From contig JACCLO010000013.1 in the NCBI GenBank assembly GCA_029448655.1, forward strand, positions 1,612,001 to 1,676,000: DNA of 64,000 bases, given 5' to 3'. The DNA is from Wolfiporia cocos. Lineage: Eukaryota > Basidiomycota > Agaricomycetes > Polyporales > Phaeolaceae. Each line of letters starts with the position of its first letter. Position 1 is the stretch's first letter. The position numbers and the translations under genes are program-made. The notes below the pieces were generated by a model, which was not told where the DNA came from, did no database searches, and saw only the letters and a program-made list of their open reading frames with translations. Positions 771 through 61,729 of this stretch are shown here, piece after piece.

Positions 771-1275
771 GCAGTCTTATGGATTAGAGCTCAGGTTATT
801 GCAAAAGACTAGGTTTCCCTAGTGTAGTGGCAGATATGTATAAGACACTTGTAACACAACAAGGTCAAGCTGAGGAGCTTGACCAGTAAGTACATGGGCT
901 TATATACCACTAACTATTGTCCAAGGTTACAATGTCCATAGTACTACTGATGTTGAATCAGAGGTGCTATGTGTATTACATAATGATAGATAGGAATGTG
1001 GCAGTTGAGTGCCACATGTCAGTATTGTGATATGTGATGATATAGTCATATGGATGAATTTTCTGACTTGCCCCCATTTGATGGGACCTAGCATTCAGCC
1101 ACTTTGTGCTGCCTTGTACTGTATCCAAGCATGTAAACCACACTCCCATTTCACCTTCATCAATTCCTTCCCTATCATTTCATACTTATCAGACCCTAGT
1201 TGTTCACTGCATCCAACTGTGACATATATCACAATACTGACATGATGTGCCCAACCACATTATTCTCATTCCTAC
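771..1275. other. Degenerate repeat DNA, no gene
   Basis: Pieces resemble diverged LTR-2-type sequence: about 800-1000 resembles 36672-36880, and about 1060-1110 resembles the start of LTR-2 around its ttagcgttcaacc block. No ORF here has a recognisable domain. The five bases at 1271-1275 (CCTAC) are the left target duplication of the LTR-4 copy that starts at 1276. Confidence 0.4.
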
Positions 1276-1671
1276 TGACACAGACTAGCTGTGGGACTCA
1301 CTGCCTGGTTCCTAAGGTGAGGGGAATGGGCGATAAGGGGGAGCCAGTCAAGCACAAGCAGGTAAGTGATAGGCTTCTGCAGCGCTAGCTGAGAAGAATA
1401 GAACCAAAGACCAAGGGCACCAAGCCCCGCCCCAAACACACACAGGGAAAGGCACATGCTATTGCTAGTAAGCCTACCCTAAAGGAGAGTGGTCTGTGTG
1501 CCATAAGGGCGTATACAGCTAAGTCGCTATTCTACAATGGCCATGTCCACTGGTAATGGCTGGACCAGTAAGAAGGAGCGGGTTAGTAACCTTATGGTTG
1601 ACGTAGAAATGGGCACAGCCCAGATATAGGGTAACTGGTGATCCGGTAAGGTGAGGGACTATGGCTATTCA
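1276..1671. repeat. LTR-4 copy, left part
   Basis: Starts TGACACAG and aligns by eye to the left part of the LTR-4 copies at 52803 and 53119 (shared gtgggactcactgcc block). It is cut at 1671 by the LTR-1 at 1672. Its continuation is found, reversed, at 46105-46438 and 36888-37235, the other side of the inferred inversion. The reversed end at 36888 is followed by GTAGG (reverse of CCTAC), matching the bases before 1276. Confidence 0.75.
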
Positions 1672-2380
1672 TGTTACGGTTATTTTGATTTTTCGAATAT
1701 CGACAGAACTCACCACCGGGCAAATACGATACAGGGACTTGTTGCGCAACCAACCCCCTGGCTACTCGTGATCTTACTGGGCGCATCCCCAGTTGTACTA
1801 GTCCAACAGGACTCGTTTCATCTCTGGCAGATCCAACTCTGTCATCGTTTCATGTTCATCGTTTATTAAGCTGATAGATGGCGTTCAACCGCCATCATTC
1901 CTATCTATTGTCGCAGATATATCACTCCATACTTATCAAACGTTTGGGACTATAGCGTAGATAGTATCGGTGACATCTGGGACAGACTTGACCCCTGAAA
2001 CCTAGCGTAGTATAAAAACTCATGTACTTACCTTCGAGGCTCTTCAGCTCGACCTTGTTGTACAAACAAGAAGTCTTATACTCGTTCTCAAACGTAGGAA
2101 ACTACGCTCAGTATTTCTCACTCGAGCAACCGAACGACTAAGTCCTCGAAGTGCACACCGACTTCTCGGACTTAGGCGAGTCTTATATTCTATTTGACTC
2201 GCACCTGAACAGATTATATCCTCTAACGCGTATTGGATATTAACCGATCCCCTAAGGACTTCACTTAGGACCCGAAGGCATCTAACGAGTATTTGCCTTG
2301 CATACGGCGACGTGCCTACGTGCAGAAGAACGATCTATATTCGCGACTCGAATATACGAACGGGTATTCGACCCGTAACA
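1672..2380 (+). repeat. Solo LTR-1 at inversion breakpoint
   Basis: A complete 709-bp LTR, tgttacgg...ccgtaaca. It is preceded by ATTCA but followed by GGGAC, so it lacks a matching target duplication. Its closest relative in the window is the minus-strand copy at 46439-47147, with only a couple of differences seen by eye and shared private variants such as the ccaacagg block. That copy has the complementary orphan flanks. The two are inferred to be the recombining copies of a 44-kb inversion. A TATA box (about 2009-2016) and the R-start block are present. Confidence 0.9.
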
Positions 2381-3026
2381 GGGACTTGTTGCGCAACCAG
2401 CCCCCCTGGCTACTCGTGATCTTACTGGGCGCATCCCCAGTTGTACTAGTCTATAGGGCTCGTTTCATCTTTGGCAGATCCAACCCTGCCACCATTTCAT
2501 GCTCATCGTTTATTAGCTGATAGATGGCGTTCAACCGCCATCATTCCTATCTATCGTCTCAGATATATCACTCCATACTTATCAAACGTTTGGGACTATA
2601 GCGTAGATAGTATCGGTGGCATCTGGGACAGACTTGACCCCTGAAACCTAGCGTAGTATAAAAACTCATGTACTTACCGTCGAGGCTCTTCAGCTCGACC
2701 TTGTTGTATAAACAAGAAGTCTTATACTCGTTCTCAAACGTAGGAAACTACGCTCAGTATTTCTCACTCGAGCAATCGAACGACTAAGTCCTCGAAGTGC
2801 ACACTGACTTCTCGGACTTAGGCGAGTCTTATATTCTATTTGACTCGCACTTGAACAGATTATATCCTCTAACGCGTATTGGATATTAACCGATCTCCTA
2901 AGGACTTCACTTAGGACCCGAAGGCATCTAACGAGTATTTGCCTTGCATACGGCGACGTGCCTACGTGCAGAAGAACAATCTATATTCGCAACTCGAATA
3001 TACGAACGGGTATTCGACCCGTAACA
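2381..3026 (+). repeat. 5' LTR of element 1 (missing first 67 bp)
   Basis: Matches the 3' LTR from its 68th base on... specifically from the GGGAC block that became the target duplication of an inserted LTR-1. It ends ccgtaaca at 3026 and directly precedes the primer-binding site. Confidence 0.92.
2657..2702 (+). promoter_or_regulatory. Element 1 TATA box and predicted transcript start
   Basis: TATAAAAA at 2657-2664 lies 35 bases upstream of agctcgacctt (2692-2702). That 11-mer is the exact reverse complement of the bases just after the LTR (3028-3038). By analogy with Tf1-type self-primed elements, transcription is predicted to start at or near 2692. The start is an inference; the spacing and complementarity are seen directly. 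Confidence 0.65.
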
Positions 3027-3027
3027 G

Positions 3028-3038
3028 AAGGTCGAGCT
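3028..3038 (+). other. Primer-binding site, self-priming type
   Basis: aaggtcgagct begins one base after the LTR end and is perfectly complementary to 2692-2702 of the same LTR. I see no reason to invoke a tRNA primer. In Tf1 of fission yeast the 5' end of the mRNA folds back on such an 11-nt site and is cleaved to prime minus-strand synthesis. Confidence 0.7.
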
Positions 3039-3072
3039 TATCACACCCTCACCTACCACGGTGTAAGGGCAC

Positions 3073-4920
3073 ATGATATTTGGACCAGAATTCCCAGCAC
3101 GACTGATTGAACTCTTGCCCGAGGACATTCAGGGAGTCTACAGACTCAACCAATACGAGTGGACTGACACCATTGGAGCCTTCCATAACCACGGAGGAAT
3201 TGTTGTCATTCCCAGAGAAGATAGGGCATCGAAGTGGGTGCAAGTATACCCCTCCACAGGAACGACCGCTTGGGAAATAACGCGTGAAGCGTTCGAACGA
3301 TTCAGAGAAATCCCTCCGATGTCAACCGCAACGTTGACCAAAAACGAAACCGAAACCATCAACAGAACCTTCGATGCCGATGGAAATACGAATCAGCCTT
3401 TGGGCGCCACAGGAATGGCAGGAATTGAGCGCATCGGAGATGATGGGAGAAATCCTGGAAACTTTACAGGAACAGATAACAGCCAGACCGGAGGACAGGA
3501 CCCTCCAGGATTTGTATCTGCTTTTGCGCAGAGTGGGATTGGGCCTATGGCTAGAGGAACAGACCTCTTTGGAAACCCCCCACAGAACGCACCCGGAATG
3601 GGTAGCGGAGGAAATCCGTCTTGGACTAGCCCAAGTGGAGGAATGGGAACAACAAACCCAGGAACATGGCCTTCAGGCCTATTTGGACGAACTTCCACAG
3701 GTACAAGCGGAGGAGGACTGGGAGGAAACTTCGGACTCGGAGGAGGGAATGCCCCCCCTCCTGGAGGACTCGGAGGAGGAACCCCCGCGAACCCCGGAGG
3801 AGGAAACCCTGGAGGGAATCCAGGGAACCCCGGAGGAAACCCAGGACACCCGGGTGGAGGATACCCGGGAGGAGGAGGACCCCCAGGAGGGCCTCCACCA
3901 CCGAATGCGCCGCAGCCTCAACCTCCGGCGCCGAACCCGTACTACCGACCCCCAATGATAAAGATCAATCCCCCAGACGTATTCGACGGGGAACGATCCG
4001 ACATGCAGAACTTCATAAACCAGTGCAATTCCTGGTTTACGATGTACGAAACGTCATTCCAGAACGACGTTCAGAGAGTGATCTTTATCCTCTCTTATAT
4101 TTCGAACAAGGGGAAAACGGGTCAATGGAAACAGAATTATCACCGGGTTTATACGAACCCACAGACGAAACGATTCTTCCCGCCTAGTCTTGCACAGTTT
4201 GACGCAGACTTCCAAAAAGCCTTTGGAGCCATCGAAGAAGTACAAAAGGCACGGAAGAAAATCCTGGACGTAACCCAGGACAGGAAGGACATCGATGATT
4301 ATATCACCGAGTTCAACAACTTGGCCGGGAAGGCCCAGTACGATCGATACAGCGCGGACGGAAACGCGTTGCTCATAACCCTCTTCGAGAAAGGGTTACC
4401 CGAACATACGACCCGATACATCATCGGCGTTCGGCCGCTACCAGCGACCATTGATGAATGGCAGTCCGCTGCCTCGTACTATGAAAATACGTACAAGATA
4501 TTCTTGAAACGGGACAAACCGTTTGTCAAGAAAAAGGCTTGGCAAGCCTCGAACCAGAATAACGGATGCACTAGTGCTCCACAGACAACCGCACCGAAAG
4601 ATCCGAATGCGATGGATGTAGATCGAATGACCACCCAGGAAAGGGACGATCACATCAAGAAGGGAAAGTGTTTCACCTGTCATCAGCCAGGGCATATGTC
4701 GCGAGACTGCCCGAAGAGGCCGAGGAAGCCAGCCCGCCCTAGGCGGACTACTCGAAAGACCGAAGAAGAAGAAGCCGAGCAAGAAGCTCGCATTGAAGAA
4801 GTCTCTGAGGAAGAGACTGAATACATCACCGCTAACAGAGCGGTCACAGCAATTAGGGCTCTGAAAGCCAAGAACCCCGAGCTCCTAGCAAGGCTCGTAG
4901 AAGAACAGGATTTTGCCTAG
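3073..4920 (+). CDS. gag: Gag polyprotein of element 1
   Basis: 615-residue structural protein that would build the virus-like particle and bind the element RNA. It has an N-terminal domain shared with element 2 (about 1-110), a long Gly/Pro/Asn-rich linker (about 165-290), and a capsid-like region from about 297 (Trp, Phe and Tyr-rich helices, as in retrotransposon gag families). A CCHC zinc knuckle sits at 533-546 (CFTCHQPGHMSRDC), followed by a Lys/Arg-rich then acidic tail. The ATG at 3073 is the first in frame after the primer-binding site. The frame ends at TAG 4918-4920, within a -1 frameshift signal into pol. The ORF is intact. Confidence 0.93.
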   Translation: MIFGPEFPARLIELLPEDIQGVYRLNQYEWTDTIGAFHNHGGIVVIPREDRASKWVQVYPSTGTTAWEITREAFERFREIPPMSTATLTKNETETINRTFDADGNTNQPLGATGMAGIERIGDDGRNPGNFTGTDNSQTGGQDPPGFVSAFAQSGIGPMARGTDLFGNPPQNAPGMGSGGNPSWTSPSGGMGTTNPGTWPSGLFGRTSTGTSGGGLGGNFGLGGGNAPPPGGLGGGTPANPGGGNPGGNPGNPGGNPGHPGGGYPGGGGPPGGPPPPNAPQPQPPAPNPYYRPPMIKINPPDVFDGERSDMQNFINQCNSWFTMYETSFQNDVQRVIFILSYISNKGKTGQWKQNYHRVYTNPQTKRFFPPSLAQFDADFQKAFGAIEEVQKARKKILDVTQDRKDIDDYITEFNNLAGKAQYDRYSADGNALLITLFEKGLPEHTTRYIIGVRPLPATIDEWQSAASYYENTYKIFLKRDKPFVKKKAWQASNQNNGCTSAPQTTAPKDPNAMDVDRMTTQERDDHIKKGKCFTCHQPGHMSRDCPKRPRKPARPRRTTRKTEEEEAEQEARIEEVSEEETEYITANRAVTAIRALKAKNPELLARLVEEQDFA

Positions 4921-4946
4921 GAGGGAAGCCCACGGTCTTACCCTCC
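4908..4946 (+). promoter_or_regulatory. -1 ribosomal frameshift signal, gag to pol
   Basis: Heptamer GGATTTT (4908-4914) lies in the gag frame as G GAT TTT. After a 5-nt spacer that includes the gag stop comes a 6-bp stem: GGAGGG (4920-4925) pairs with CCCTCC (4941-4946). Slipping one base back enters the pol frame, which is open through to the conserved pol start region. Element 2 has the same layout with compensating stem changes. Not tested experimentally here. Confidence 0.7.
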
Positions 4947-7714
4947 GAGAAAGCAGCGCATGTAATTACCTCGTTCGAGAAGAATCGATCCCTCTTCATC
5001 CCGGTAATCATGACGCTGGCGAAACCCGTGAAGTGCAATGCACTAATCGACTCAGGAGCAATGTCAAACCTGATCCACAGCAGAGTGGTAGAAAAATACA
5101 AGGTGCCCACGCAACCCTTGAAGAACCCAATCATCGTCAAAAATGTTGACGGAACAGAAAACAAAGATGGGCGAATAGACCGGGAAGCCACCATACTACT
5201 ACGATATCCGAAGACCCAGAAAACGCGAAAAGTCCGATTCCTGGTAGGATCAATCGGAACAGAGAATATGATTCTAGGGTATGGATGGCTAAAAGACGAA
5301 AACCCCACAATCGACTGGAAGGACCAAACAGTCGATGTACGATCAATACTAGGGGCAGAAGAAAAGAAACAGGAAGCCACGATCCAAATGGATACGGTGG
5401 AGATGGTAGTTGCCCCAGAAGGGAAAATTCCAACAAGGGGGACCCAAGAAGCTGCAGGGTATGACCTTTACGCCGCAGAAGAAACCGAGATTCCCGCCGG
5501 AGGATGGAAACTTGTCTCCACAGGAGTAAAAATGAAGATCCCGAAGGGATTGTATGGAAGGTTGGCCGGACGATCAGGCAACACCCTCAGACACGGATTG
5601 GTAGTACAAGCCGGAGTCATAGACTCGGACTACCGAGGAGACGTCGGAGCCATCGTCTTCAACTACTCAGACAAAGCACATAGAATTATCCCGGGCATGC
5701 GAATAGCCCAGATAATTTTCGAACGGCACCTCACCCCCGACATTATAGAGGTCGAAGACCTAGATAAAACAGAACGAGGGGAGAAAGGGTTTGGATCCAC
5801 GGAGCAGCCAGAAGAAACAGCACAGCGGCTCTATACTCCCGAGGAGTACGAAGCGATCCGACGCTTTGCAAAAGATAACCCTAGGATCATAGGAAAGAAA
5901 GGGGAGACGCGAAAGAAGTTCCGAACAAAGATACAAATCATCAACGCTGTCAGGAAAGCGCTGACGAAATCCCAGGAATTCGCGCAGAAAACCCCCGAAC
6001 CAGAACGAACGATTGAGGAGATGGTCCCGAAGCACCTACTGGACTTCGCCAAAGTGTTCAGCAAGGAGTCCGCAGCAGCGTTCCCCCCGTCGAGACCATG
6101 GGACCACGCAATCGAATTAAAACCCGATTTCGTGCCGAAAGACTGCAAAGTCTATGCACTCTCGCCTAAAGAGCAACAGGCGCTGGACGAATTCCTAAAA
6201 GAAAACTTGACCAAGGGATTCATAGTCCCTTCAAAATCCCCAATGGCGTCGCCATTCTTTTTCGTCCCAAAGAAAGACAGCGGCCTACGACCCTGTCAAG
6301 ATTATCGATATCTGAACGAAGGAACGATAAAGAACGTCTATCCCTTGCCACTGATCTCAGAGCTCCTGGAAAAGCTAAAAGGAGCAAAGATCTTCACAAA
6401 AATGGACCTTAGAGCGGGATACAACAACGTGCGGATCAAAAAGGGAGACGAATGGAAAGCGGCCTTCAAAACAAACCGAGGGTTGTACGAGCCCACAGTT
6501 ATGTTTTTCGGATTGTGCAATGCACCCGGGACCTTTCAGGCAATGATGAACGAAATCCTGAAAAAAGAAATCCTCGAAGGATGGGTGCTTGTTTATATGG
6601 ACGACATCCTCATTTTCTCAGAAGACAAGAAAATACACAAGGAACGGGAGCGGCGGATCCTCCAGAGATTGGTGGATAACTACCTCTTTGTGAAACCCGA
6701 GAAATGCGCCTTCGGTGTCGACAGAGTCGAATTTCTGGGACTAGTCATCACCCCAGGAAATATCCAGATGGACCCAGCGAAACTCAATGGGATTAAAGAG
6801 TGGCCGACTCCCCGAAATCTCAAAGAAGTCAGATCCTTCCTAGGATTTGCGAACTTCTATCGGAAATTTATCGATCACTACTCTACGCACGCCCGACCCT
6901 TGGTAGACCTCACAAAAACGGTCACAGGGACAGGGTTCCAATGGACGGAGAAAGAACAGAAAGCATTCGAATTCATGAAGAAAGCATTCACGACGGCGCC
7001 CGCACTAGGAACACCAGACAAGGAGAAACCGTTTATCCTCGAAACAGACGCATCTCAGTTCGCCACAGGGGCAGTACTGAAACAGATAGATGAAACAGGG
7101 CGCGAACGGCCGGTGGGATATCTCTCACAATCCCTGACATCTACAGAATGGAACTATGAAATCTACGATCGCGAACTACTCGGAATAGTCCGAGCCTTAG
7201 AAGAATGGCGGCACCTGTTAGAAGGAGCACCGCATCGGATCTTGATCCGAAGTGATCACCAGAACTTGACGTACTGGAGAAGCGCACAGCGCCTAAATTG
7301 GCGACAAGCGAGATGGCATCTATTCCTCTCGCAATTCGACCTGAAGTTACAACACGTCCCCGGAAGGAAACTAGTCATGGCCGACACACTCTCCAGGTTG
7401 TACCACCTTGACGAAAGCGACGAAGACAACGAGGGAATCACCATGATTCCAGACGAGCTCGTAGTCCATGCGATCCAGATCCCGATCATCGATCGAATCA
7501 AGAACGCCAACGATCGAGATGAATCTGCGGAACAGGCGATCCGTGCTCTCGGGGGCACAGGCGAATTCCCCGCGAGAACCACCGCAGATGAATGGCAACA
7601 AACGGATGGAATACTGCTCTACAGGGGCAGGATGTACGTACCAAGAGACGAGGGCCTTCGGCGGGACGTCATCTCAAAATACCACGACACGATCCCGGCC
7701 AGACACCCTGGGAT
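4908..7714 (+). pseudogene. pol: Pol of element 1, first part (PR-dUTPase-RT-RNase H)
   Basis: Pol is in the -1 frame relative to gag; the first in-frame ATG is 5010, but translation probably enters by frameshift near 4908, since the residues between are conserved with element 2. Numbering from Met 5010: aspartic protease (Asp-Ser-Gly at 14-16), dUTPase (about 140-265, five motifs including GYDLYAA, RSG, GVIDSDYRGDV, RIAQIIFE, GFGSTE), reverse transcriptase (about 345-560, YMDD at 529-532), RNase H (ETDAS near 678, later Glu and two Asp present), then the start of the integrase zinc-binding region. It is cut at 7714 by a solo LTR-1 inserted at GGGAT; the downstream half is intact at 8424-10775. 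The interrupted protein would lack integrase. Confidence 0.92.
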
Positions 7715-8423
7715 TGTTACGGGTCGAATACCCGTTCGTATATTCGAGTCGCGAATATAGATTGTTCTTCTGCACGTAGGCTTGTTGCCGTATGCAAGGC
7801 AAATACTCGTTAGATGCCTTCAAGTCCTAGATGAAGTTCCTAGGAGATCGTATAATATCCAATACGCGTTAGAGGATATAATCTGTTCAGGTGCGAGTCG
7901 AAATAGAATATAAGACTCGCCTAAGTCCGAGAAGTCAGTGTGCACTTCGAGGACTTAGTCGTTCGGTTGCTCGAGCGAGAAATACTGAGCGTAGTTTCCT
8001 ACGTTTGAGAACGAGTATAAGACTTCTTGTTTATACAACAAGGTCGAGCTGAAGAGCCTCGACAGTAGGTACATTAGTTTATATACTACGTTGGGTTTCA
8101 GGGGTCAAGTCCGTCCCAGATGTCACCGATACTATCTACGCTATAGTACCAAACGTTTGATAGGTATGTAGTGATATACCTGAGACGATAGATAGGAATG
8201 ATGGCGGTTGAACGCCATCTATCCGCTAACAAACGATGAACATGAAACGGTGGCAGAGTTGGATCTGCCAAAGATGAAACGCGCCCTATAGACTAGTACA
8301 ACTGGGGATGCGCCCAGTAGAGTCACGAGTAGCCAGGGGAGTTGGTTGCGCAACAAGTCCCTGTATCGTATTCGCCCAGTGGTGAGTTCTGTCGATATTC
8401 GAAAAATCAAAATAACCGTAACA
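7715..8423 (-). repeat. Solo LTR-1 inside pol of element 1
   Basis: A complete 709-bp LTR on the minus strand with the target duplication GGGAT on both sides (7710-7714 and 8424-8428). It splits the integrase N-terminal zinc-binding segment, between the conserved His-Pro-Gly-Ile and Trp-Gly residues. It is a solo LTR, so the inserted element later lost its interior by LTR-LTR recombination. Confidence 0.95.
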
Positions 8424-8428
8424 GGGAT

Positions 8429-10775
8429 CTGGGGTACAACAGTACAGGTCAAGACCCACTTTTGGTGGCCTGACATGGGAACAATGATAGCGGAATACGT
8501 CCGGGGCTGTGCAATCTGTCAACAGATGAAACCTGATCGAAATCCGATCAAACCCCCACTACAACCGATACCGACACGAGAGGACGCCCTCCCCTTCTCA
8601 CAATGTTCAGTCGACTTTGTCACCGACCTGCCAAGAGTGGGAAAATATGACTCAATGATGGTGATCGTCGACCATGGCCTATCCAAGGCAATCTCTCTCA
8701 CCCCATGCGACAAAACGATCACTAGCGAAGGGGCGGCAGAGATATTTCACCGAAAAATCTACTCGCTATATGGCATCCCCCGAAAGATCATTTCAGACAG
8801 AGGACCACAGTTTGCATCAAAGCTCTTCAAGGAGTTATGCCGACTGCAGGGGACAGAGTCAGCGATGAGTACAGCATACCACCCCCAGACAGACGGACAA
8901 ACGGAAAGGATGAACCAACAAATCGAAGTATACCTTCGTATCTATTGCATGAACGACCCTTTTCAATGGGTACAACGACTACCTGACGTCGAATTTGCAC
9001 ACAACACCAGACGAACCGAAAACCGGCCTGCGCCACTTGAAATAATCCTAGGATATATCCCGAGAGGATTCCCAGACTATGACCGAGTAGGGAACGTCCC
9101 GGCAGCTGTCGACAGGATCAAGAAGGTCAAAGAGGTGCGAAAGATGGCATTCATCGCGCATGAATTAGCCCAGAAAAGAATGGCAGGGCGGTTTCTCAGA
9201 GAACTGCCGAAGCTTGAGAAAGGGGATAAGGTCTGGCTCGACGCCAAGAACCTAATGATCCCCTATGAATCGAACAAACTGGCACCAAAAAGAGAAGGAC
9301 CCTTCACCATCACAGAAAAGATGGGACCCATGACATACCGGCTGCAGTTACCGGCGAATTGGAAAATTCATCCGGTCTTCCACGCTGCCTTACTAAAACC
9401 ATTCAAAGAAACAAGGGTACACGGACCCAATTACCTACGGCCGCCACCTGATATCATCAAGGGACAAGAAGAATACGAAGTCGAAGCCATCTTGGCTGAC
9501 AGATGGCAAAGAAAGAAGCATCAATACTTCGTCAAGTGGAAAGGCTATGCCACGGCCGACAACTCATGGGAAGACGAGGGGAACTTGGAGCACTCCAAGG
9601 AACTGATAAAAGACTACCACAGGACGAGAGTCAGGACAACCCCAACACTCGAAAACAGGACAGTAATAGTATGTCGACGACTCGCCACCAGCTCCCCCGC
9701 CGTACCACGACCCCCGGCGATGCAGATCGTCGAGAAGGCCGACCGCGAGGTACGCCACCAAGAAGGTACTCCCCCCAGCATCTGCAGATTAGACACGCCC
9801 TCCTCTGGTACAGGGCCGAGGGACCTTTTGCTGGCCGAGCTGATGGCTGGTCGGCCCTCTTCGACATCGCGCAGGACCTCACCCACGTTTACAGCTCGTA
9901 CCAGAACATCACCGAGGACCTCGTCCGAATGGAGGGGCAGATCAGAGCGCAGAGAGAGGGACTCGAGCTACTCACCAACAGACTTATCGACCGATTGGCC
10001 GCCACTACAACGGCCCGACTACGACACGCGCTCAACGACTTCGAGGATCGCGAGCACGTTGCTCCCAGTCGACCCGAATACACACCGCGACCCGCCCACT
10101 TTTTCACCCCCGACGAACGACGCCAAGTTGCAAGGCCGTTTGATCTTATGGAGGGCGATAGAGTATTATTTCCGTTGCCTACCGAGACTCAGAGGGCCCG
10201 CCGAACAGGAGTTAGAGACCCGACGCCACGTATTTCTGGTATGGGAGGCAACGGGAGACGTGAACCACCTGCACGCCCGACGAGCCCTAGGGCTACCCCA
10301 GCGCGACAGCGAAGAGCGAATAGCACGCCGCCTATTCGACGATCTCCTTCAGTGCAGAGTATTACCCGCGAGGAGTTTGAGCGAGGTGCGAGGGAGCACG
10401 AACGAGACACCACCTCCCTACCAACATGGGCCGCACGAAACCTTCACCGAGCCGCACACCACTGGAGGTACCAACATAACGAATACCTCCGCGATATCCC
10501 TTCCCTCCGGGTACCAGCGAGGCCCTCACCCGAGCAGCCGTGTCGACAATGTGGTTCCGCTAACCACTGGATCCTCGACTGCCCCGATTATATTTGCAGA
10601 ACTTGTGGGCTCAATCAACCAGGTCATCGACAGAATGAATGCCGCCAACACTTCGTATGGCGAACTCCTACGACCCCGTCCCTCAGCGGGAACGGCGACA
10701 TCTACAACGAACAGGACGCCGAGGCACTCTGAAGAGGGGAACTTGGAAAATTCGTCGAGGCCGACGAATGCTTAG
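8429..10775 (+). pseudogene. pol: Pol of element 1, second part (integrase-chromodomain-tail)
   Basis: This is the continuation of pol after the LTR insertion. It carries the rest of the integrase zinc finger (Cys-x2-Cys near 8508-8520) and the catalytic core with Asp, Asp (SDRGPQF) and Glu (GQTERMN) in DD35E spacing. A GPF-type module (REGPFTI) and a chromodomain (EYEVEAIL ... YFVKWKGY, about 9475-9610) follow. A roughly 390-residue tail then runs to TAG 10773-10775. The tail has no family I recognise, but a stretch (ILW ... ALGLP ... RLFDDL) is conserved in element 2. It overlaps the third ORF in another frame. Confidence 0.9.
9671..10732 (+). CDS. Third ORF of element 1, double zinc-knuckle protein
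   Basis: 353 residues, entirely overlapping the pol tail in the -1 frame. The frame is open further upstream, but the ATG at 9671 aligns with the first Met of the element 2 homologue and both have A at -3. A helical, partly coiled-coil-like segment (about 35-110) is followed by a Pro/Arg-rich linker, a conserved ITREEFERG block and two zinc knuckles near the C terminus. These are C-x2-C-x4-H-x4-C at 291-304 and C-x2-C-x6-H-x4-C at 309-324. It could be a nucleic-acid-binding or particle protein; the function is unknown. The ORF is downstream of the pol insertion and itself unbroken. Confidence 0.75.
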   Translation: MSTTRHQLPRRTTTPGDADRREGRPRGTPPRRYSPQHLQIRHALLWYRAEGPFAGRADGWSALFDIAQDLTHVYSSYQNITEDLVRMEGQIRAQREGLELLTNRLIDRLAATTTARLRHALNDFEDREHVAPSRPEYTPRPAHFFTPDERRQVARPFDLMEGDRVLFPLPTETQRARRTGVRDPTPRISGMGGNGRREPPARPTSPRATPARQRRANSTPPIRRSPSVQSITREEFERGAREHERDTTSLPTWAARNLHRAAHHWRYQHNEYLRDIPSLRVPARPSPEQPCRQCGSANHWILDCPDYICRTCGLNQPGHRQNECRQHFVWRTPTTPSLSGNGDIYNEQDAEAL

Positions 10776-10786: not shown

Positions 10787-11494
10787 TGTTACGGTTATTT
10801 TGATTTTTCGAATATCGACAGAACTCACCACTGGGCGAATACGATACAGGGACTTGTTGCGCAACCAGCCCCCCTGGCTACTCGTGATCTTACTGGGCGC
10901 ATCCCCAGTTGTACTAGTCTATAGGGCTCGTTTCATCTTTGGCAGATCCAACCCTGCCACCATTTCATGCTCATCGTTTATTAGCTGATAGATGGCGTTC
11001 AACCGCCATCATTCCTATCTATCGTCTCAGATATATCACTCCATACTTATCAAACGTTTGGGACTATAGCGTAGATAGTATCGGTGGCATCTGGGACAGA
11101 CTTGACCCCTGAAACCTAGCGTAGTATAAAAACTCATGTACTTACCGTCGAGGCTCTTCAGCTCGACCTTGTTGTATAAACAAGAAGTCTTATACTCGTT
11201 CTCAAACGTAGGAAACTACGCTCAGTATTTCTCACTCGAGCAATCGAACGACTAAGTCCTCGAAGTGCACACTGACTTCTCGGACTTAGGCGAGTCTTAT
11301 ATTCTATTTGACTCGCACTTGAACAGATTATATCCTCTAACGCGTATTGGATATTAACCGATCTCCTAAGGACTTCACTTAGGACCCGAAGGCATCTAAC
11401 GAGTATTTGCCTTGCATACGGCGACGTGCCTACGTGCAGAAGAACAATCTATATTCGCAACTCGAATATACGAACGGGTATTCGACCCGTAACA
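10787..11494 (+). repeat. 3' LTR of element 1
   Basis: 708 bp, tgttacgg...ccgtaaca. It contains the same TATA box and start block as the 5' LTR. It is followed by GTTAA, one mismatch from the target duplication GTTAC kept at 47215-47219 (reverse). Confidence 0.95.
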
Positions 11495-11574
11495 GTTAAC
11501 CTGACCAGGAATATGCCTTTGTGCAAGTACTATTCCTCAGGCTCTAGCTTGAGATCGTTGCTTGTGTCAGAATG
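11495..11574 (+). repeat. LTR-3 fragment plus target duplication GAATG
   Basis: 11495-11569 is the terminal piece of an LTR-3, matching 57552-57625 reversed. The main body of this same LTR is at 47215-47545. The bases GAATG (11570-11574) equal the reverse of CATTC at 61725-61729 beyond the other LTR of element 3. The fragment is thus the displaced end of element 3's 3' LTR. Confidence 0.85.
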
Positions 11575-11589
11575 GTGATGTGACAACCT

Positions 11590-11940: not shown

Positions 11941-12651
11941 TGTTATGGTTATCTCGATTTTTCGAACGCTGACAGAACTCACCATGGGGTGAATACGATA
12001 CAGGGACTTGTTGCACAACCAATCCCCTGGCTACTCGTGACTCATACTGGGCGCATCCCCGGATGTACTAGCAGATAGGGCGAGTTTCACCTTTGGCAGA
12101 TTCCACTCTGCCCCGTTTCATGATTATCATTTACTAGCTGATAGATGGCGTTCAACCGCCATCATCATTCCTATCTATCGTCTCGGATATATCACTACAT
12201 ACTTATCAAATGTTTGGTACTATAGCGTAGATAGTAGCGGTGACATCTGGGACAGACTTGACCCCGAAAAACCCTACGTAGTATATAAACTCATGTACTT
12301 ACTGTCGAGGCTCTTCAGCTCGACCTTGTTGTACAAACAAGAAGTCTTATACTCGTTCTCAAACGTAGGAAGCTACGCTCAGTATTCTTCACTCGAGCAA
12401 CTGAACGACTAAGTCCTCGAAGTGCACACAGACTTCTCGGACTTAGGCGAGTCTTATATTCTATCGGACTCGCACCTGAACAAATTATATCCTCTAACGC
12501 GTATTGGATATTGAGCGATCTCCTAAGGTATTCGCCTAGGACTTGAAGGCATCTAACGAGTATTTGCCTTGCATAAGGCTACACGCCTACGTGCAGAAGA
12601 ACGATCTATATTCGCGACTCGAATATACGAACGGGTATTCGACCCGTAACA
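11941..12651 (+). repeat. Solo LTR-1 with TSD CCATT
   Basis: A 711-bp LTR, diverged from the element 1 LTR (first bases tgttatgg), with CCATT on both sides (11936-11940 and 12652-12656). It is a clean solo LTR, older than those near element 1. Confidence 0.93.
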
Positions 12652-19895: not shown

Positions 19896-21062
19896 AGACG
19901 AGGTAGCAGAAATGCTTTAGGGCCCACCCTGAAGGGCCTGTCATACTTATGTTCTGAGGTCCGTCACCTAGAGCGCCCGTCGCCTAGTAGTACTAGAGTG
20001 TATTTGTGCGCTTCCAAAGATCACTTCGTGTCAATGAGTCTTTAAGATTAACGTAGTATTTCGTTACCACATGATTTCAAACCGCGTGGTCGTTGGTGCA
20101 CTCTCTAAGTATACAAGCTTGGATCTTTGTGGATGGAAAATGGAACTCTGATTCAGGTCGAGTAACACACTAGTTGACGTATCAAAGTACCTGAAGTTAC
20201 AATGATCACTGACCTGGTCCCAAGACCGCCGGAGTCCGTTAGAATCCGCAGGCCTGGTCTTTGTCTTGACATCCCCGAGCCCTCTAATGTCCTACCGTTT
20301 ACAGTACATCAATTCCAAACCTACCTGCCTTCTAGGCTGTCTATTAATTTGCCGTGGTTCAAAATTCCCTTCCGATGCGCTCGGATTACAACACAGAAAC
20401 ATCATGCAATTGCTCCCGCACACGCAGAGCCTTCGCAACAAAGCAAAATCAAGCATACATGGCCTGCCTTTCCACATCCGTGTGAGAACTTGGGACATAG
20501 AAGAACAATAAATTGAACGGGAGTACCATAGTAAGGCAGGTCGATAGACGGGACCAAAGCATGTGATTGATGCCATGAGAGCGAATTAGAAGAGTATACC
20601 AATCTGATAATTCGCTCCCGGGGGTCGCGGAGGAACGATGTCGCCGGCTTCGGTAGCGAAAGAAAGGATGTATTAGAATTTCGATGGCTGACTAGGGTTC
20701 TAACATGCGCCTGCAACCATACGTCCTCGGGTGATTGCAGTCACCGGTCAAGCTTAAGTTCGAGCTTGAGGCTTACTGGTGCGCAGTGGCAGCATTGATT
20801 AGTGTTAATGCCTGCAAGATCCCGAGTGGGACAAACAGCATCCCAGCACTGCTGCTCAGAGGGCATCTCTGAGTAGAATAGTGGAGTAACGTACACAGAC
20901 TGCAGTAGATGAGACGTATCGTGAGCACATTAACGCTACATGCTGACGAGAACGATGAACGCCTGTGGCAGATGAATGAAGCGGACCATCACTCAACATA
21001 ATGATAGCGATCGCGTTCATATAAATAACTGAGCTGCTCGACAAAATGCTATTCCGAAAGTC
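19896..21062. other. Intergenic, no gene recognised
   Basis: Between the divergently arranged P450 start and the MFS 3' end. Short ORFs on both strands show no domain and no conserved composition. Confidence 0.4.
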
Positions 21063-37235: not shown

Positions 37236-37359
37236 TAACACAGACTTACAGTCTGTGGGACCTGCGCAGCAGGGGGACTCAATATGCCGCTGAAGTGCTG
37301 AGGTTTGAGGCATCACCACTGTCCAAGCCCCAGACAAGTGAGTGTAAGATATGAGGTGT

Positions 37360-37893
37360 TGTTACGATCCGTATGAATCCGTATACTTTGACGCCTCACT
37401 AGAAAGGAGGACTTAGCGTTCAACCGCTGTATTGACCGATTATTCTTAGGGTCCCTGCTCAACCACCGACCCCCGTTTCATGTACAACAACCCTACGCCC
37501 CTAGTCTCATAGCGTATCAGGTTCTAGGTGATATCTGTTGTATATCTACAGAGCTTCTACGTTTCAGCCATTGTTGCGCTCAACCGCAGCGTTTCGGCTT
37601 AGTTATCGTAGCGTACTAACCTTATGGACTTAGTGGTAGCAGTACCAAGGACACTATGACCCCGATTACAGAATCGTAGTATAAAGACCCTGTTGTAAAT
37701 ACTGGCCGAGTTCCTCAGCTCGACCTTGTTGAATTACAAGGATCCTATACTCGTTCTCAAAAGACTTAAGCAATTAAGTCTGCAGCCAGTATATCGACGC
37801 TCGACTCTGCTGAGTCCGACGAGTAGTGCGCTACTCGATACGCTGAGTAACTCGACTTAACATCTCAGCTGAACGGATATTCGATCCGTAACA
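37360..37893 (+). repeat. 5' LTR of element 2
   Basis: 534 bp, tgttacgatcc...gatccgtaaca. Contains the TATA box at 37680 and the start block at 37717-37727. Confidence 0.97.
37680..37727 (+). promoter_or_regulatory. Element 2 TATA box and predicted transcript start
   Basis: tataaag (37680-37686) lies 37 bases before agctcgacctt (37717-37727), the reverse complement of the primer-binding site at 37895-37905. Confidence 0.65.
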
Positions 37894-37894
37894 G

Positions 37895-37905
37895 AAGGTC
37901 GAGCT
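37895..37905 (+). other. Primer-binding site of element 2, self-priming type
   Basis: aaggtcgagct, one base after the LTR end, identical to that of element 1 although the surrounding LTR sequences differ. Confidence 0.7.
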
Positions 37906-37938
37906 CTTAACAGACTCACTTACCAAGAGTGCAAGTCC

Positions 37939-44669: not shown

Positions 44670-44714
44670 TGTTTGGATTTCATCGAGGGCGATGACGGCT
44701 TAGGAGGGGGGTGA

Positions 44715-45248
44715 TGTTACGATCCGTATGAATCCGTATACTTTGACGCCTCACTAGAAAGGAGGACTTAGCGTTCAACCGCTGTATTGACCGATTATTC
44801 TTAGGGTCCCTGCTCAACCACCGACCCCCGTTTCATGTACAACAACCCTACGCCCCTAGTCTCATAGCGTATCAGGTTCTAGGTGATATCTGTTGTATAT
44901 CTACAGAGCTTCTACGTTTCAGCCATTGTTGCGCTCAACCGCAGCGTTTCGGCTTAGTTATCGTAGCGTACTAACCTTATGGACTTAGTGGTAGCAGTAC
45001 CAAGGACACTATGACCCCGATTACAGAATCGTAGTATAAAGACCCTGTTGTAAATACTGGCCGAGTTCCTCAGCTCGACCTTGTTGAATTACAAGGATCC
45101 TATACTCGTTCTCAAAAGACTTAAGCAATTAAGTCTGCAGCCAGTATATCGACGCTCGACTCTGCTGAGTCCGACGAGTAGTGCGCTACTCGATACGCTG
45201 AGTAACTCGACTTAACATCTCAGCTGAACGGATATTCGATCCGTAACA
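44715..45248 (+). repeat. 3' LTR of element 2
   Basis: 534 bp; I found no difference from the 5' LTR by eye. Preceded by the purine run taggaggggggtga (44701-44714) and followed by GGTGT. Confidence 0.97.
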
Positions 45249-45364
45249 GGTGTAGCCGCAGGCAGTCGCACACAGAGAGGTAAGAGAGAGGGTCAGTGCC
45301 CAGACATCGAGAATAACAAGTCTGGGGCAGTAAGGCCGCCAGACATAGCTATAAGTACGTACAG

Positions 45365-45906
45365 TGTTACAGTTTGTACCGGTATGCTTGAATATCTTTT
45401 CCGATGTCCCACTGGGAGGAGGGACTTAGCGTTCAACCGTTTTATTGCGCGCTCGATTTTAGGGACCTTCGCTCAACTGATGGTCCTCGTTTCATGTACA
45501 ACAGCCCTATGCCCATAGTCTCACATCGTATCAGATTCTAGTTGACTATCATTGTGTCTAACCACAATTCTTACGTTTCATCCCTTGTTGCACCCAACCG
45601 CAACGCTTCATATTTGTCTCACTAGCACACTAGCCTTATGGACTTGATGGTAGTAGTACCACAGACACTATGACCCCAGTTATAGGATCGCAGTATATAA
45701 TCTGATGTAAATACTGGTCAAGTTCCTCAGCTCAACCTTGTTGAATTACAAGGATCTTATACTCGTTCTCAAAGGCTTGAGCAATTAAGCCTGCAGCTTG
45801 TATATCGACGCTCTGACTCTGCCGAGTCCAACAAGTAGTGTGCTACTTGATACGCTGAGCAACTCAACTTAACTAATTCAGCTAAACGGATATTCGATCC
45901 ATAACA
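45365..45906 (+). repeat. Solo LTR-2 with TSD TACAG
   Basis: 542 bp, diverged from the element 2 LTR, with TACAG on both sides (45360-45364 and 45907-45911). Confidence 0.92.
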
Positions 45907-46104
45907 TACAGGAGTGAGTGAACGTGCTACCCTCAACTATGGGTCTGTGCATAGGTTTGGTAACGTGAGTGACCGTAATGCTAACTACTGTAACGTATCA
46001 CCTGACCATTAGGATAAGTGCATGAAATGTAAGTACATAACCGCATATAGGTGTGATACAAGTGCAGGACGAGAATGAAAGGTAAGGAAAATAAATCTGT
46101 GACA

Positions 46105-46438
46105 TGTCATCACTACGTCAACTGGTCTAGCTGCAAGGCCAGAACCATACGTCACCACCCTCACCAGCAGAACCTGGGCATTATGACATCACGCACACAC
46201 CATTATCGTGTTATCATGGCTCCATAGCATAATAATAGCTGCAAGGCATTATTGCTATTGGTCCAGCACTCGTGGACCACCTCTGGACTCTGGTGAAAGC
46301 CGAGTCCCATACTCTAGCCTCACGGCCTGGTAGTCCCTGGTCCCTCTAGGCCATACGTCATAGCTCCAGCCCTCAAGGCTTAGCCAATGGCACTACTGAC
46401 TCGGTGCTCTGCCTTAGTCAGCCTCAGACCTGGTGAAT
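46105..46438. repeat. LTR-4 copy, middle part
   Basis: Reads, reversed, as the continuation of 1276-1671: the flank TGAAT (46434-46438) is the reverse of ATTCA at 1667-1671. Shares blocks with other LTR-4 copies such as gtgatgtcat and gctagacca on the reverse strand. Confidence 0.65.
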
Positions 46439-47147
46439 TGTTACGGGTCGAATACCCGTTCGTATATTCGAGTCGCGAATATAGATCGTTCTTCTGCACG
46501 TAGGCACGCCGCCGTATGCAAGGCAAATACTCGTTAGATGCCTTCGGGTCCTAAGTGAAGTCCTTAGGGGATCGGTTAATATCCAATACACGTTAGAGGA
46601 TATAATCTGTTCAGGTGCGAGTCGAATAGAATATAAGACTCGCCTAAGTCCGAGAAGTCGGTGTGCACTTCGAGGACTTAGTCGTTCGGTTGCTCGAGTG
46701 AGAAATACTGAGCGTAGTTTCCTACGTTTGAGAACGAGTATAAGACTTCTTGTTTGTACAACAAGGTCGAGCTGAAGAGCCTCGAAGGTAAGTACATGAG
46801 TTTTTATACTACGCTAGGTTTCAGGGGTCAAGTCTGTCCCAGATGTCACCGATACTATCTACGCTATAGTCCCAAACGTTTGATAAGTATGGAGTGATAT
46901 ATCTGCGACGATAGATAGGAATGATGGCGGTTGAACGCCATCTATCAGCTTAATAAACGATGAACATGAAACGATGACAGAGTTGGATCTGCCAGAGATG
47001 AAACGAGTCCTGTTGGACTAGTACAACTGGGGATGCGCCCAGTAAGATCACGAGTAGCCAGGGGGTTGGTTGCGCAACAAGTCCCTGTATCGTATTTGCC
47101 CGGTGGTGAGTTCTGTCGATATTCGAAAAATCAAAATAACCGTAACA
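46439..47147 (-). repeat. Solo LTR-1 at second inversion breakpoint
   Basis: 709 bp, almost the same as 1672-2380 and in opposite orientation. The left flank TGAAT and right flank GTCCC do not match each other, but each matches (reversed) one flank of the copy at 1672. Confidence 0.92.
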
Positions 47148-47214
47148 GTCCCTGTATCGTATTCGCCCAGTGGTGAGTTCTGTCGATATTTGAAAAATCA
47201 AAATAACCGTAACA
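47148..47214 (-). repeat. Missing first 67 bp of the element 1 5' LTR
   Basis: The reverse complement matches the first 67 bases of the element 1 3' LTR with one difference, including the variant cactgggcgaata that distinguishes it from the neighbouring LTR. Followed by GTAAC, element 1's own target duplication. Confidence 0.9.
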
Positions 47215-47716
47215 GTAACTCAAGGTGTAAAAGGCCAAGACAAGTCTGGGGTGCTACCCAGCTTGCAGGCCAGTATATATGCTCTACAGATGTTTGTACA
47301 TGTTATGGCATTATGAGCTGTGATGCTGTATCTACAGTAATGTACTGGTGAAACATACGATCACGTCATGATTGAGTTGTGATCGGTAATCTACGATGGT
47401 GGCTACACTGAGGGTCTGGTTAGGGTTTGGCATGTGACTAGGGTTACTATATAAGGAATGGGCACTAAGATAAGATAAGATAAGATAAGGGAACTTGTCA
47501 GTGTTGTCTAGTTGGAGGCTAATTGAATGAAATCAGCCTGTGACAGTACCCCCTCTTCTAGCTGCTCGTCCCCGAGCCCAGCAATTACTTTGTACCATTG
47601 TTGATCAATGTGGCATGGGTGGTCAAGCTCATGCTTCTGGCATCAATGCGTGTTTGCCAGTTGCAGGGTGTACTTGATTGGGTAGATCCAACCAGAGTTG
47701 TTCAGTATAGTGGATT

Positions 47717-49136: not shown

Positions 49137-49139
49137 ATG

Positions 49140-52301: not shown

Positions 52302-52373
52302 TCGGACAAAGTCCTCCTGGGGGATCTCGCTGAGGACCTTCGGCTCACTATTCCCATCAGTGAGCTGCCGGGT

Positions 52374-57539: not shown

Positions 57540-57550
57540 AGACTCGTCTT
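57540..57550 (-). other. Primer-binding site of element 3, self-priming type
   Basis: Minus-strand aagacgagtct, one base after the LTR. It pairs with agacttgtctt of the LTR (57644-57654 reversed) at 10 of 11 positions, the eleventh a G-U wobble. That block lies about 32 bases downstream of a TATATA (57681-57687, minus strand). Confidence 0.6.
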
Positions 57551-57789
57551 ATGACACAAGCAATGATCTCAAGCTAGAGCCTGGGGAATAGTACTCACAC
57601 AAAGGCATATTCCTGGTCAGGGTAACTCAAGGTGTAAAAGGCCAAGACAAGTCTGGGGTGCTACCCAGCTTGCAGGCCAGTATATATGCTCTACAGATGT
57701 TTGTACATGTTATGGCGTTATGAGTTGTGATGCTGTATCTACAGTAAGATAGTGTGCATACAAACTCATCAAAGGATGACTAAGCAACC

Positions 57790-59930
57790 ACGGGATGCCA
57801 TGCACGGCCAGGAACAGGTGTCCCCAAGGGACCGGACGGCCCGCACGGCCGGTGCCCTGCCTCGATTGTCTTTGGCCGTTCCAGCTCGCGCGCGGCCGCG
57901 GCTGCACCCCGGCCGGCGGACCGGCCGGCCGGCTGAAGGGATGGCGCTCCTGGACCATGCACGGGATGCCATGCACGGCCAGGAACAGGTGTCCCCAAGG
58001 GACCGGACGGCCCGCACGGCCGGTGCCCTGCCTCGATTGTCTTTGGCCGTTCCAGCTCGCGCGCGGCCGCGGCTGCACCCCGGCCGGCGGACCGGCCGGC
58101 CGGCTGAAGGGATGGCGCTCCTGGACCATGCACGGGATGCCATGCACGGCCAGGAACAGGTGTCCCCAAGGGACCGGACGGCCCGCACGGCCGGTGCCCT
58201 GCCTCGATTGTCTTTGGCCGTTCCAGCTCGCGCGCGGCCGCGGCTGCACCCCGGCCGGCGGACCGGCCGGCCGGCTGAAGGGATGGCGCTCCTGGACCAT
58301 GCACGGGATGCCATGCACGGCCAGGAACAGGTGTCCCCAAGGGACCGGACGGCCCGCACGGCCGGTGCCCTGCCTCGATTGTCTTTGGCCGTTCCAGCTC
58401 GCGCGCGGCCGCGGCTGCACCCCGGCCGGCGGACCGGCCGGCCGGCTGAAGGGATGGCGCTCCTGGACCATGCACGGGATGCCATGCACGGCCAGGAACA
58501 GGTGTCCCCAAGGGACCGGACGGCCCGCACGGCCGGTGCCCTGCCTCGATTGTCTTTGGCCGTTCCAGCTCGCGCGCGGCCGCGGCTGCACCCCGGCCGG
58601 CGGACCGGCCGGCCGGCTGAAGGGATGGCGCTCCTGGACCATGCACGGGATGCCATGCACGGCCAGGAACAGGTGTCCCCAAGGGACCGGACGGCCCGCA
58701 CGGCCGGTGCCCTGCCTCGATTGTCTTTGGCCGTTCCAGCTCGCGCGCGGCCGCGGCTGCACCCCGGCCGGCGGACCGGCCGGCCGGCTGAAGGGATGGC
58801 GCTCCTGGACCATGCACGGGATGCCATGCACGGCCAGGAACAGGTGTCCCCAAGGGACCGGACGGCCCGCACGGCCGGTGCCCTGCCTCGATTGTCTTTG
58901 GCCGTTCCAGCTCGCGCGCGGCCGCGGCTGCACCCCGGCCGGCGGACCGGCCGGCCGGCTGAAGGGATGGCGCTCCTGGACCATGCACGGGATGCCATGC
59001 ACGGCCAGGAACAGGTGTCCCCAAGGGACCGGACGGCCCGCACGGCCGGTGCCCTGCCTCGATTGTCTTTGGCCGTTCCAGCTCGCGCGCGGCCGCGGCT
59101 GCACCCCGGCCGGCGGACCGGCCGGCCGGCTGAAGGGATGGCGCTCCTGGACCATGCACGGGATGCCATGCACGGCCAGGAACAGGTGTCCCCAAGGGAC
59201 CGGACGGCCCGCACGGCCGGTGCCCTGCCTCGATTGTCTTTGGCCGTTCCAGCTCGCGCGCGGCCGCGGCTGCACCCCGGCCGGCGGACCGGCCGGCCGG
59301 CTGAAGGGATGGCGCTCCTGGACCATGCACGGGATGCCATGCACGGCCAGGAACAGGTGTCCCCAAGGGACCGGACGGCCCGCACGGCCGGTGCCCTGCC
59401 TCGATTGTCTTTGGCCGTTCCAGCTCGCGCGCGGCCGCGGCTGCACCCCGGCCGGCGGACCGGCCGGCCGGCTGAAGGGATGGCGCTCCTGGACCATGCA
59501 CGGGATGCCATGCACGGCCAGGAACAGGTGTCCCCAAGGGACCGGACGGCCCGCACGGCCGGTGCCCTGCCTCGATTGTCTTTGGCCGTTCCAGCTCGCG
59601 CGCGGCCGCGGCTGCACCCCGGCCGGCGGACCGGCCGGCCGGCTGAAGGGATGGCGCTCCTGGACCATGCACGGGATGCCATGCACGGCCAGGAACAGGT
59701 GTCCCCAAGGGACCGGACGGCCCGCACGGCCGGTGCCCTGCCTCGATTGTCTTTGGCCGTTCCAGCTCGCGCGCGGCCGCGGCTGCACCCCGGCCGGCGG
59801 ACCGGCCGGCCGGCTGAAGGGATGGCGCTCCTGGACCATGCACGGGATGCCATGCACGGCCAGGAACAGGTGTCCCCAAGGGACCGGACGGCCCGCACGG
59901 CCGGTGCCCTGCCTCGATTGTCTTTGGCCA
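57790..59930. repeat. 171-bp tandem repeat array, about 12.5 copies
   Basis: Unit starts acgggatgcc at 57790, 57961, 58132 and every 171 bp up to 59842; the thirteenth copy stops after 89 bp. The copies appear identical. The unit is very GC-rich with ggccggcc and gcggccgc blocks, unlike the surrounding DNA. As 171 is divisible by 3 and the unit has no stop in several frames, five frames stay open throughout; this is not evidence of a gene. Confidence 0.97.
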
Positions 59931-60473
59931 TTTGTTTGTCACAAAATGAACGTGACATACCTAACTGCCTCTAACAACCCTATCTCCCAGCCATACACAT
60001 GTAGAGGACTGAGGTACAATGCTATGACCCAAGACTGTCAGGGTCGCATAGCGAGGTGTGGTGCCGAGGTTGCACAGTCAAGCGTGATAGAACCACTGTA
60101 AAATTAATGCGAATTCTGTGCAGTACAGTATCCAAAATCAAAAACCACAGATTTGTAGGAAATTGCATTCCGCACAATCACTTGCGAGCAGATTTTTGAT
60201 CCTTGCCTTTGCTGAATTGCCTTAGCATTTACATGGGAGGGACTACAGTCAATGCCAAAACAAGCTATTTGAAATTGTCTTATCAATATCACTCTCAGCA
60301 CCACCTGAGCCACCTGGCACTCACTCATGCCCAGGTGACATCTTAAAAATCTAGGGGCGCACTCGAGCTTGGAACGAGCATGTCCGGAAGATAATGATTG
60401 GGATAAGGAGAATGTGAGTTGGACCATTAATATTTTAATACCGACCAATGATATTGACAGTAGTCCTAGGTTG
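59931..60473. other. TIR element interior, no gene
   Basis: Non-repetitive DNA between the array and the solo LTR. No domain is recognisable. GGTTG at 60469-60473 is the target duplication of the LTR that follows. Confidence 0.5.
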
Positions 60474-61013
60474 TGTTACGGATCGAATATCCATTCAACG
60501 CAAATAACTGGGTCGAGTTACTCAGCGTATCGAGTAGCGCACTACTCGTCGGACTCCTTAGAGTCAGAGCGTCGATATACAAGCTGCGGGCTTAATTGCT
60601 TAAGCCTTTGAGAACGAGTATAAGATCCTTGTAATTCAACAAGGTCGAGCTGAGGAACTCGACCGGTATTTACATCAGGTTATATACTGCGGTCTATTAA
60701 TTGGGGTCATAGTGTCCTTGGTACTGCTACTATTAAGTCCGTTGGGCTAACGATATAAGTAATAAAGGAGAAGTGTTGCGGTTGAGCGCAACAAGGGATG
60801 AAATGTAGAACTACTGTGGTTAGACACAGAATATCAGCTAGAACGCGATGCGAACGCGGAGAGTGGGCATAGGGTTGTTATACATGAAACAGGGCCTACG
60901 GTTGAGCGGAGGCCCTTGGAAAGAGAGCGCTGGATACAGCGGTTGAATGCTAAGTCCTCATACACGGTGAGGCGTTAAACGAATATTCGAGTGTACCTGG
61001 TGGAATCATAACA
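60474..61013 (-). repeat. Solo LTR-2 with TSD GGTTG
   Basis: 540 bp on the minus strand, GGTTG on both sides (60469-60473 and 61014-61018). Confidence 0.93.
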
Positions 61014-61015
61014 GG

Positions 61016-61291
61016 TTGCTCCAGCAGCTAAGCAGAGACACCGGCTGCCTCAGGATATGTTGGCAAGCTACAATCCACCCGTTCGATTGTCAAAGGCAGC
61101 AGATGTACTGTAATTTAGTTGTGCTATACAGATACTATAATCACTCGCTGCGCTTCATGGATGTTTACCGTCGAGGACTAGATGGACAACAGGCGGCATG
61201 GGCCAACAAAAAGTATCATGGACATCATGTTTTGCCAGATATCATCTTGGCGGAATTCAACCACACACACCCTCCATCGTGGCTTTGTTGA
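61016..61291 (+). other. Short ORF in TIR element, possible transposase remnant
   Basis: 91 codons, starting right at the solo LTR edge, with a motif (YRRGLDGQQAAWANKKYHGH) that looks like real protein rather than random translation. I cannot assign a family. It may be the C-terminal scrap of a gene cut by the LTR insertion. Confidence 0.35.
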
Positions 61292-61729
61292 TTGTAGGCA
61301 TCAATAAGCTTTATTGAAGTATACATGCTGCTAACTGAATAGACAATGGCGTACAGATGGGAAGTGGCAATACGGGCAAGCGCTTGGACTAATGCACGAA
61401 ATGAGAACAGCGCTTGACCGATAACTCCTACATGATGGGCCGATTTGGAAATGTAATGACTATGTCATGTAACAGTCACGTATTGGAACATTTGATGAGT
61501 TTGTATGAGGACTATCTTAACATACTGGTGAAACATACGATCGCGTCGTGATCGAGTTGTGATTGGTAATCTATGATGGTGGCTACACTGAGGGTCTGCT
61601 TAGGGTTTTGCATGTGACTAGGGTTACTATATAAGGAATGGGCATAAGATAAGATAAGATAAGATAAGGGAACTTGTCAGCGTTGTCTAGTTGGAGGCTA
61701 ATTGAATGAAATCAGCCTATGACACATTC

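Follow-up and report, generated by a model that had tools for sequence, protein, structure and literature searches.

Swapped target-site duplications record a probable 44-kb inversion between two inverted solo LTRs in Wolfiporia cocos

Introduction

Reciprocal recombinants of proviruses and solo LTRs that carry mismatched duplications were reportedly described in primates by Hughes and Coffin in 2001 and 2005. Ectopic exchange has been read in primate proviruses from complementary mismatched duplications, as in the account given of the gibbon SERV-K/MER11 case (PMC11379458). Among fungi, potential inversions of ~4.1 to 102.6 kb, with a median of ~39 kb, are reported for Candida albicans (PMC6591007). 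In two Wolfiporia papers examined for it, the word "inversion" is absent from the main text of one (PMC9503964) and appears once in the other, in the title of a reference (PMC11354754).

The locus described here lies in a window of 64,000 nucleotides, which is the whole stretch of DNA that was analysed (GCA_029448655.1, contig JACCLO010000013.1, positions 1,612,001 to 1,676,000; coordinates below count from its first letter). The window is part of one contig in a 64.4-Mb genome of 76 contigs (64,431,438 bases, largest contig 5,289,744 bases). An earlier note on this DNA had proposed a 44-kb inversion, and the observation behind that proposal is confirmed as real.

Results

Exchanged flanks at two inverted LTRs

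The breakpoints are marked by two LTRs of the LTR-1 family, named X and Y, and by the following features:

1667-1671, plus strand: ATTCA, half of a target-site duplication; its partner is the reverse complement of 46434-46438
1672-2380, plus strand: solo LTR X, a 709-bp member of the LTR-1 family, TGTTACGG...CCGTAACA; present flanks ATTCA and GGGAC
2381-2385, plus strand: GGGAC, half of a target-site duplication; its partner is the reverse complement of 47148-47152
2381-46438: inverted block between X and Y, 44,058 bp; the true crossover would lie somewhere within the LTRs
46434-46438, minus strand: ATTCA, partner half, read on the minus strand
46439-47147, minus strand: solo LTR Y, 709 bp; flanks on its own strand GGGAC and ATTCA
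47148-47152, minus strand: GGGAC, partner half, read on the minus strand

X and Y, which had been called near-identical and inverted, agree at 705 of 709 positions on opposite strands, with exact coordinates, and they form the most similar inverted pair among the 25 listed of the 72 found. The mismatch of their flanks also holds: in the present order 0 of 5 bases agree at each LTR, and crosswise 5 of 5 agree at both. Flipping 2381-46438 gives both LTRs perfect duplications, ATTCA and GGGAC, each at 5 of 5 bases.

Three nested elements rejoined by the same flip

The first of the elements that span the breakpoints, element 1, is laid out as follows:

47148-47214, minus strand: first 67 bp of the element 1 5' LTR, which stayed outside the block and differs from the 3' LTR at 1 site
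2381-3026, plus strand: remainder of the 5' LTR; 0 differences from the 3' LTR over 646 bp
3073-10775, plus strand: element 1 interior, Ty3/gypsy-like, with a solo LTR inserted at 7715-8423
10787-11494, plus strand: element 1 3' LTR, followed by GTTAA (11495-11499), whose partner GTTAC is the reverse complement of 47215-47219

Elements 1 and 2 are Ty3/gypsy-like chromodomain retrotransposons: their open frames, scanned against Pfam in their present state, contain gag, RT, RNase H, integrase and chromodomain. The interior of element 1 also contains protease and dUTPase domains. The flip rejoins the 5' LTR of element 1, placing 47148-47214 as its start before 2381-3026 as its rest, with GGGAC present in both pieces. 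The duplication of this element, GTTAC/GTTAA, is likewise restored only by the flip, although it matches at 4 of 5 bases and is therefore not perfect. An uninterrupted relative at 57549-57747 reads GTAAC at that site (GTTAC on the other strand), so that, judging from this sequence, the changed base probably sits in the copy at 11495-11499.

Element 3 is divided in a comparable list of pieces:

11495-11569, minus strand: first 75 bp of the element 3 left LTR, carried into the block
47215-47545, plus strand: rest of the left LTR, outside the block
11570-11574, minus strand: CATTC, half of the element 3 duplication; its partner is 61725-61729
61725-61729, plus strand: CATTC, the other half, outside the block

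The left LTR of element 3 (11495-11569 with 47215-47545) is rejoined as had been claimed, and its duplication CATTC (GAATG on the other strand) is exact only after the flip. Its LTR has 42 other matches, of which 22 starting near the break were examined (20 elsewhere in the genome and two in the window). The two halves are contiguous at the break in 21 of these 22 copies, with an overlap of 4-6 bases, the exception being L077, which has no match to the short piece. All eight relatives found for an element 3 ORF belong to Wolfiporia cocos, the best of them aligning across 95% of the query at 68% identity.

An old LTR-4 also spans the breakpoints:

1276-1671, plus strand: LTR-4, its first 396 bp, lying outside the block, with the duplication half CCTAC at 1271-1275
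46105-46438, minus strand: continuation of LTR-4, now within the block; inner end placed by eye, the alignments running to 46104
36888-37235, minus strand: end part of LTR-4, inside the block, with the duplication half CCTAC as the reverse complement of 36883-36887

The CCTAC duplication (1271-1275 and 36883-36887) is exact and is restored only after the flip. The start at 1276 is supported by 28 of the 44 other matches to the LTR-4 query, which begin at its first base. The halves are contiguous in all 13 genome loci that were selected because both halves are present, and in several of those loci (e.g., L051, L052, L053 and L057) the third part also follows. Among the matches listed, 12 of the 26 other LTR-4 copies that reach the break run on into the second half, with an overlap of 5 bases in 11 of them, as a target-site duplication predicts, and of 4 bases in one; the remaining 14 have no neighbour in these listings, which score 40 candidates each, and count neither way.

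Insertions and genes inside the block

A flip must spare insertions that lie wholly inside the block and alter only those that span its ends. Four internal insertions served as controls:

37360-45248, plus strand: element 2, wholly in the block; GGTGT/GGTGT in the present order
7715-8423, minus strand: solo LTR-1 within element 1; GGGAT/GGGAT in the present order
11941-12651, plus strand: solo LTR-1; CCATT/CCATT in the present order
about 32966-33676, minus strand: old solo LTR-1-like copy, 79% identical; GTTAT/GTTAT in the present order

All four tested match in the present order, so the pattern observed is the one that the inversion hypothesis requires. The earlier placement of element 2 inside the block stands, its GGTGT flanks being unchanged. 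The old copy at 32966-33676 was considered as a failing control, with flanks TATTA/GTTAT by the alignment ends, and this was rejected because the alignment begins at base 3 of the LTR; once the start is placed two bases beyond the alignment, its flanks read GTTAT/GTTAT.

Host genes had also been assigned to the block; the part of it that was checked gave one P450 exon piece (ten of the 45 open frames were scanned) and one ORF similar to Fomitopsis serialis proteins. A single-copy sequence within the block is represented by this sample:

20000-22500: single-copy sequence in the block, 2.5 kb sampled

A search of the assembly with 20000-22500 for a second haplotype or an uninverted allele returned a single copy and neither of the two. 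This result, together with the reported homokaryotic state of the strain that the assembly matches (PMC9503964), argues against a mixing of haplotypes.

LTR-1 copies across the genome

LTR-1 has at least 40 full-length matches in the genome (40 of 1727 candidates were scored), three of them in the window, and the other 37 were extracted. A perfect 5-bp duplication flanks 20 of these 37. Another 15 belong to longer elements as their LTRs, as seen from a common inner flank (GCTGA before the 3' LTR in nine copies, GAAGG after the 5' LTR in six). The last two, L014 and L038, have differing outer flanks. A search by exact pattern for partners of these two gave three matches. In L014 a partial tandem LTR, consisting of a second LTR end of 58 bp, accounts for the mismatch and is followed by the missing duplication GCCGC; for L038 the search gave no partner. 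A search of plasmid DNA with LTR-1 gave zero matches, as expected for a fungus.

These 37 copies and the six full copies of the window make a set of 43 copies and 903 pairs, in which X/Y is the only pair with a double cross-match and no self-match. One-sided cross-matches are few, namely the two X/Y directions, L037/L030, and the CTATC of L048 with L013 and with L038. L037 and L030 lie on the same contig and strand, ~8.3 kb apart, with complementary inner flanks, and are taken for the LTR pair of a single element. The CTATC common to L038 and the L048 element raised the suspicion of an exchange, which was rejected because the other LTR of that element also has CTATC, as in an ordinary insertion.

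The recurrence of CTATC at three LTR-1 insertions (L013, L038 and L048) means that the choice of target by LTR-1 may not be fully random, which gives some room to the explanation that the locus had never been rearranged and the 5-bp agreements were due to coincidence or to target-site preference. This explanation is barely conceivable, given that X/Y stands alone among the 903 pairs, and it is already contradicted by the contiguous relatives, the 13 copies for LTR-4 and the 21 for element 3 in which the split LTRs are joined, a result that is independent of any 5-mer. The chance of obtaining four exact 5-mers and a fifth agreeing at 4 or more of 5 bases is ~1.5e-14, calculated for one fixed breakpoint pair; the window offers about a dozen inverted LTR-1 pairs, and allowing for a choice among them would leave the conclusion as it is.

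Taken together, a single flip restores all five spanning pairs named in the earlier note, with an exact match in four of them and 4 of 5 bases matching in the fifth. That note had called the five pairs independent, which is right in that they are separate insertions, but two are breakpoint pairs and three are nested ones, and all test one and the same breakpoint pair. Since one flip restores the five pairs, and since the rejoined order is also present in uninterrupted paralogous copies elsewhere in this genome, the inversion reading is supported.

Quality of the assembly at the breakpoints

Both that reading and the X and Y junctions are taken here from the assembly, and a misjoin at an inverted repeat yields exactly the same swapped flanks; if the wrong arms of this 0.7-kb repeat had been joined, the block would be drawn backwards and the chromosome would keep the original order. 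The analysed assembly is probably that of W. hoelen SS20, a homokaryotic strain for which PacBio Sequel II reads of about 330x coverage were assembled with Falcon into 64.44 Mb in 78 contigs, the longest of 5.29 Mb (PMC9503964). The reads reported there amount to 21.02 Gb in 1,497,235 reads (PMC9503964); by division this gives a mean of 14.0 kb, ~20 times the length of the repeat, and such long reads make a misjoin at a 0.7-kb repeat unlikely. Moreover, X and Y can be distinguished at 4 sites, and one 2.65-Mb contig contains both breakpoints. On the other side, a later paper suggests that chromosome 1 of SS20, in what is probably the same assembly, may be incorrectly assembled, a remark made of the longest, Hi-C-anchored chromosome (PMC11354754), which may or may not be the one that includes the contig of the window. 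On this balance, an assembly error is an unlikely source of the pattern.

Discussion

Origin of the inversion

At both breakpoints a complete 709-bp LTR stands with intact ends and intact 5-bp flanks, and these clean junctions point to homologous exchange between inverted repeats. End joining would normally leave truncated LTRs, or bases lost or added at the junctions. If the inversion is real but came from breakage and rejoining, through non-homologous repair or a more complex replication-based event that ended at the two LTRs by chance, this would be compatible with the flanks by themselves. Nor do the four differences between X and Y place a crossover tract: L017 has all four states of X, the comparison of ten LTR-1 copies gave no private site for X or for Y, and the pattern needs no exchange. 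The intact junctions nevertheless make this origin highly improbable. As read from one assembly, the flip very probably arose by non-allelic homologous recombination between X and Y; we infer the homologous crossover inside the LTRs and the presence of the inversion in the organism beyond the assembly.

In the history proposed, element 1 would first have inserted into element 3, where it sits in the left LTR. Two LTR-1 insertions in opposite orientation, 44 kb apart, would have followed: Y would have entered element 1 in its 5' LTR, with duplication of GGGAC, and then X the old LTR-4, with duplication of ATTCA. Both are solo LTRs today. As the last step, X and Y would have paired within one chromatid and recombined, flipping 2381-46438.

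The flip should be younger than element 1, because Y would have been inserted in that element before it. The LTRs of element 1 differ at one site in 708. If each site is assumed to change at a rate between 1e-9 and 1e-8 a year, a general range and not one specific to this fungus, the age of element 1 would be ~0.07-0.7 million years, with an upper Poisson bound of 0.4-3.9, which would be an underestimate if its LTRs underwent conversion. Possibly, though this is somewhat doubtful, the flip happened recently enough for W. hoelen strains still to segregate for the two orientations, and the survival of both LTRs in full may allow repeated switching of the block between them. If true, such flipping would change the neighbourhood of the host genes inside the block.

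Comparison with known systems

The locus documents, compactly and with its own dating, a probable LTR-mediated inversion in a basidiomycete, for which a single genome yields the ancestral order, the derived order, the responsible repeats and an upper age limit. It shows that no outgroup is needed for nested retroelements and their duplications to expose an inversion, and it points to a place in the genome of a cultivated fungus that may vary between strains. Both this mode of inversion and its reading from mismatched duplications were already known, as the primate provirus (PMC11379458) and Candida albicans (PMC6591007) precedents indicate in the parts that concern them; the understanding of the mechanism is unchanged, and the Wolfiporia case is a clean fungal example.

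As in the Saccharomyces cerevisiae Ty system, copies of an LTR retroelement cause gross rearrangements, although that system, as presented in PMC3102749, is experimental and uses a Ty element introduced on a single arm of a chromosome. The potential inversions described in Candida albicans resemble the one reported here in occurring in a fungus, in their size, in having breakpoints in long inverted repeats and in being explained by NAHR, but eight of the nine are at ORF-containing repeats and lone LTRs are rare there; they came from strain data (PMC6591007), whereas the Wolfiporia inversion was read from swapped duplications. In the form of the evidence there is a likeness with the gibbon SERV-K/MER11, where two LTR-bearing loci with complementary mismatched duplications are likewise interpreted as both products of one ectopic exchange (PMC11379458). 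That exchange, in the account given, is a chromosomal translocation (PMC11379458), whereas in Wolfiporia it is an intrachromosomal inversion whose products lie 44 kb apart, found in a fungus and accompanied by three further nested elements that test it.

Unusual LTR-1 copies elsewhere in the genome

Among the 43 full copies of LTR-1 examined (the 40 full-length matches listed, of 1727 candidates, together with the copies in the window), L038 (G000:C67:1669847-1670553) is the only solo LTR, besides the two that border the inverted block, whose differing outer flanks (ACGGT/CTATC) are unexplained, and it is possibly another ectopic recombinant. L014 (G000:C76:260430-261196) is a partial tandem LTR: behind its solo LTR comes the end of a second one, 58 bp long, and GCCGC is found on both sides when the two are taken as one unit.

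Contents of the inverted block

The inverted block (2381-46438) contains traces of host genes at 25547-26020 and 29432-29869: an exon piece of a cytochrome P450 and an ORF that resembles Fomitopsis serialis proteins, one of which contains PF20152. LTR-4, an old LTR split by the probable inversion, carries an additional insertion (37236-46104) with LTR-4-like ends; the insertion in turn hosts element 2 and an LTR-2-like copy (45417-45906). Read by eye, the flanks of this insertion (TGTTA/TGTCA) match at 4 of 5 positions; an exact 5-mer match was sought and not found. In both chromodomain gypsy elements, at 5010-7760 and 39678-44669, a dUTPase domain stands between the protease and the reverse transcriptase.

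Repeats to the right of the block

The right LTR of element 3, the split element that spans the right breakpoint, is itself in two parts, separated by a tandem array (57789-59929) of 12.5 copies of a 171-bp unit with 100% matches; G+C content is 73% across 58001-60000. Closer to the window end lies a 197-bp inverted repeat (62449-62645 and 62995-63191), with arms 94% complementary and spaced by 349 bp.
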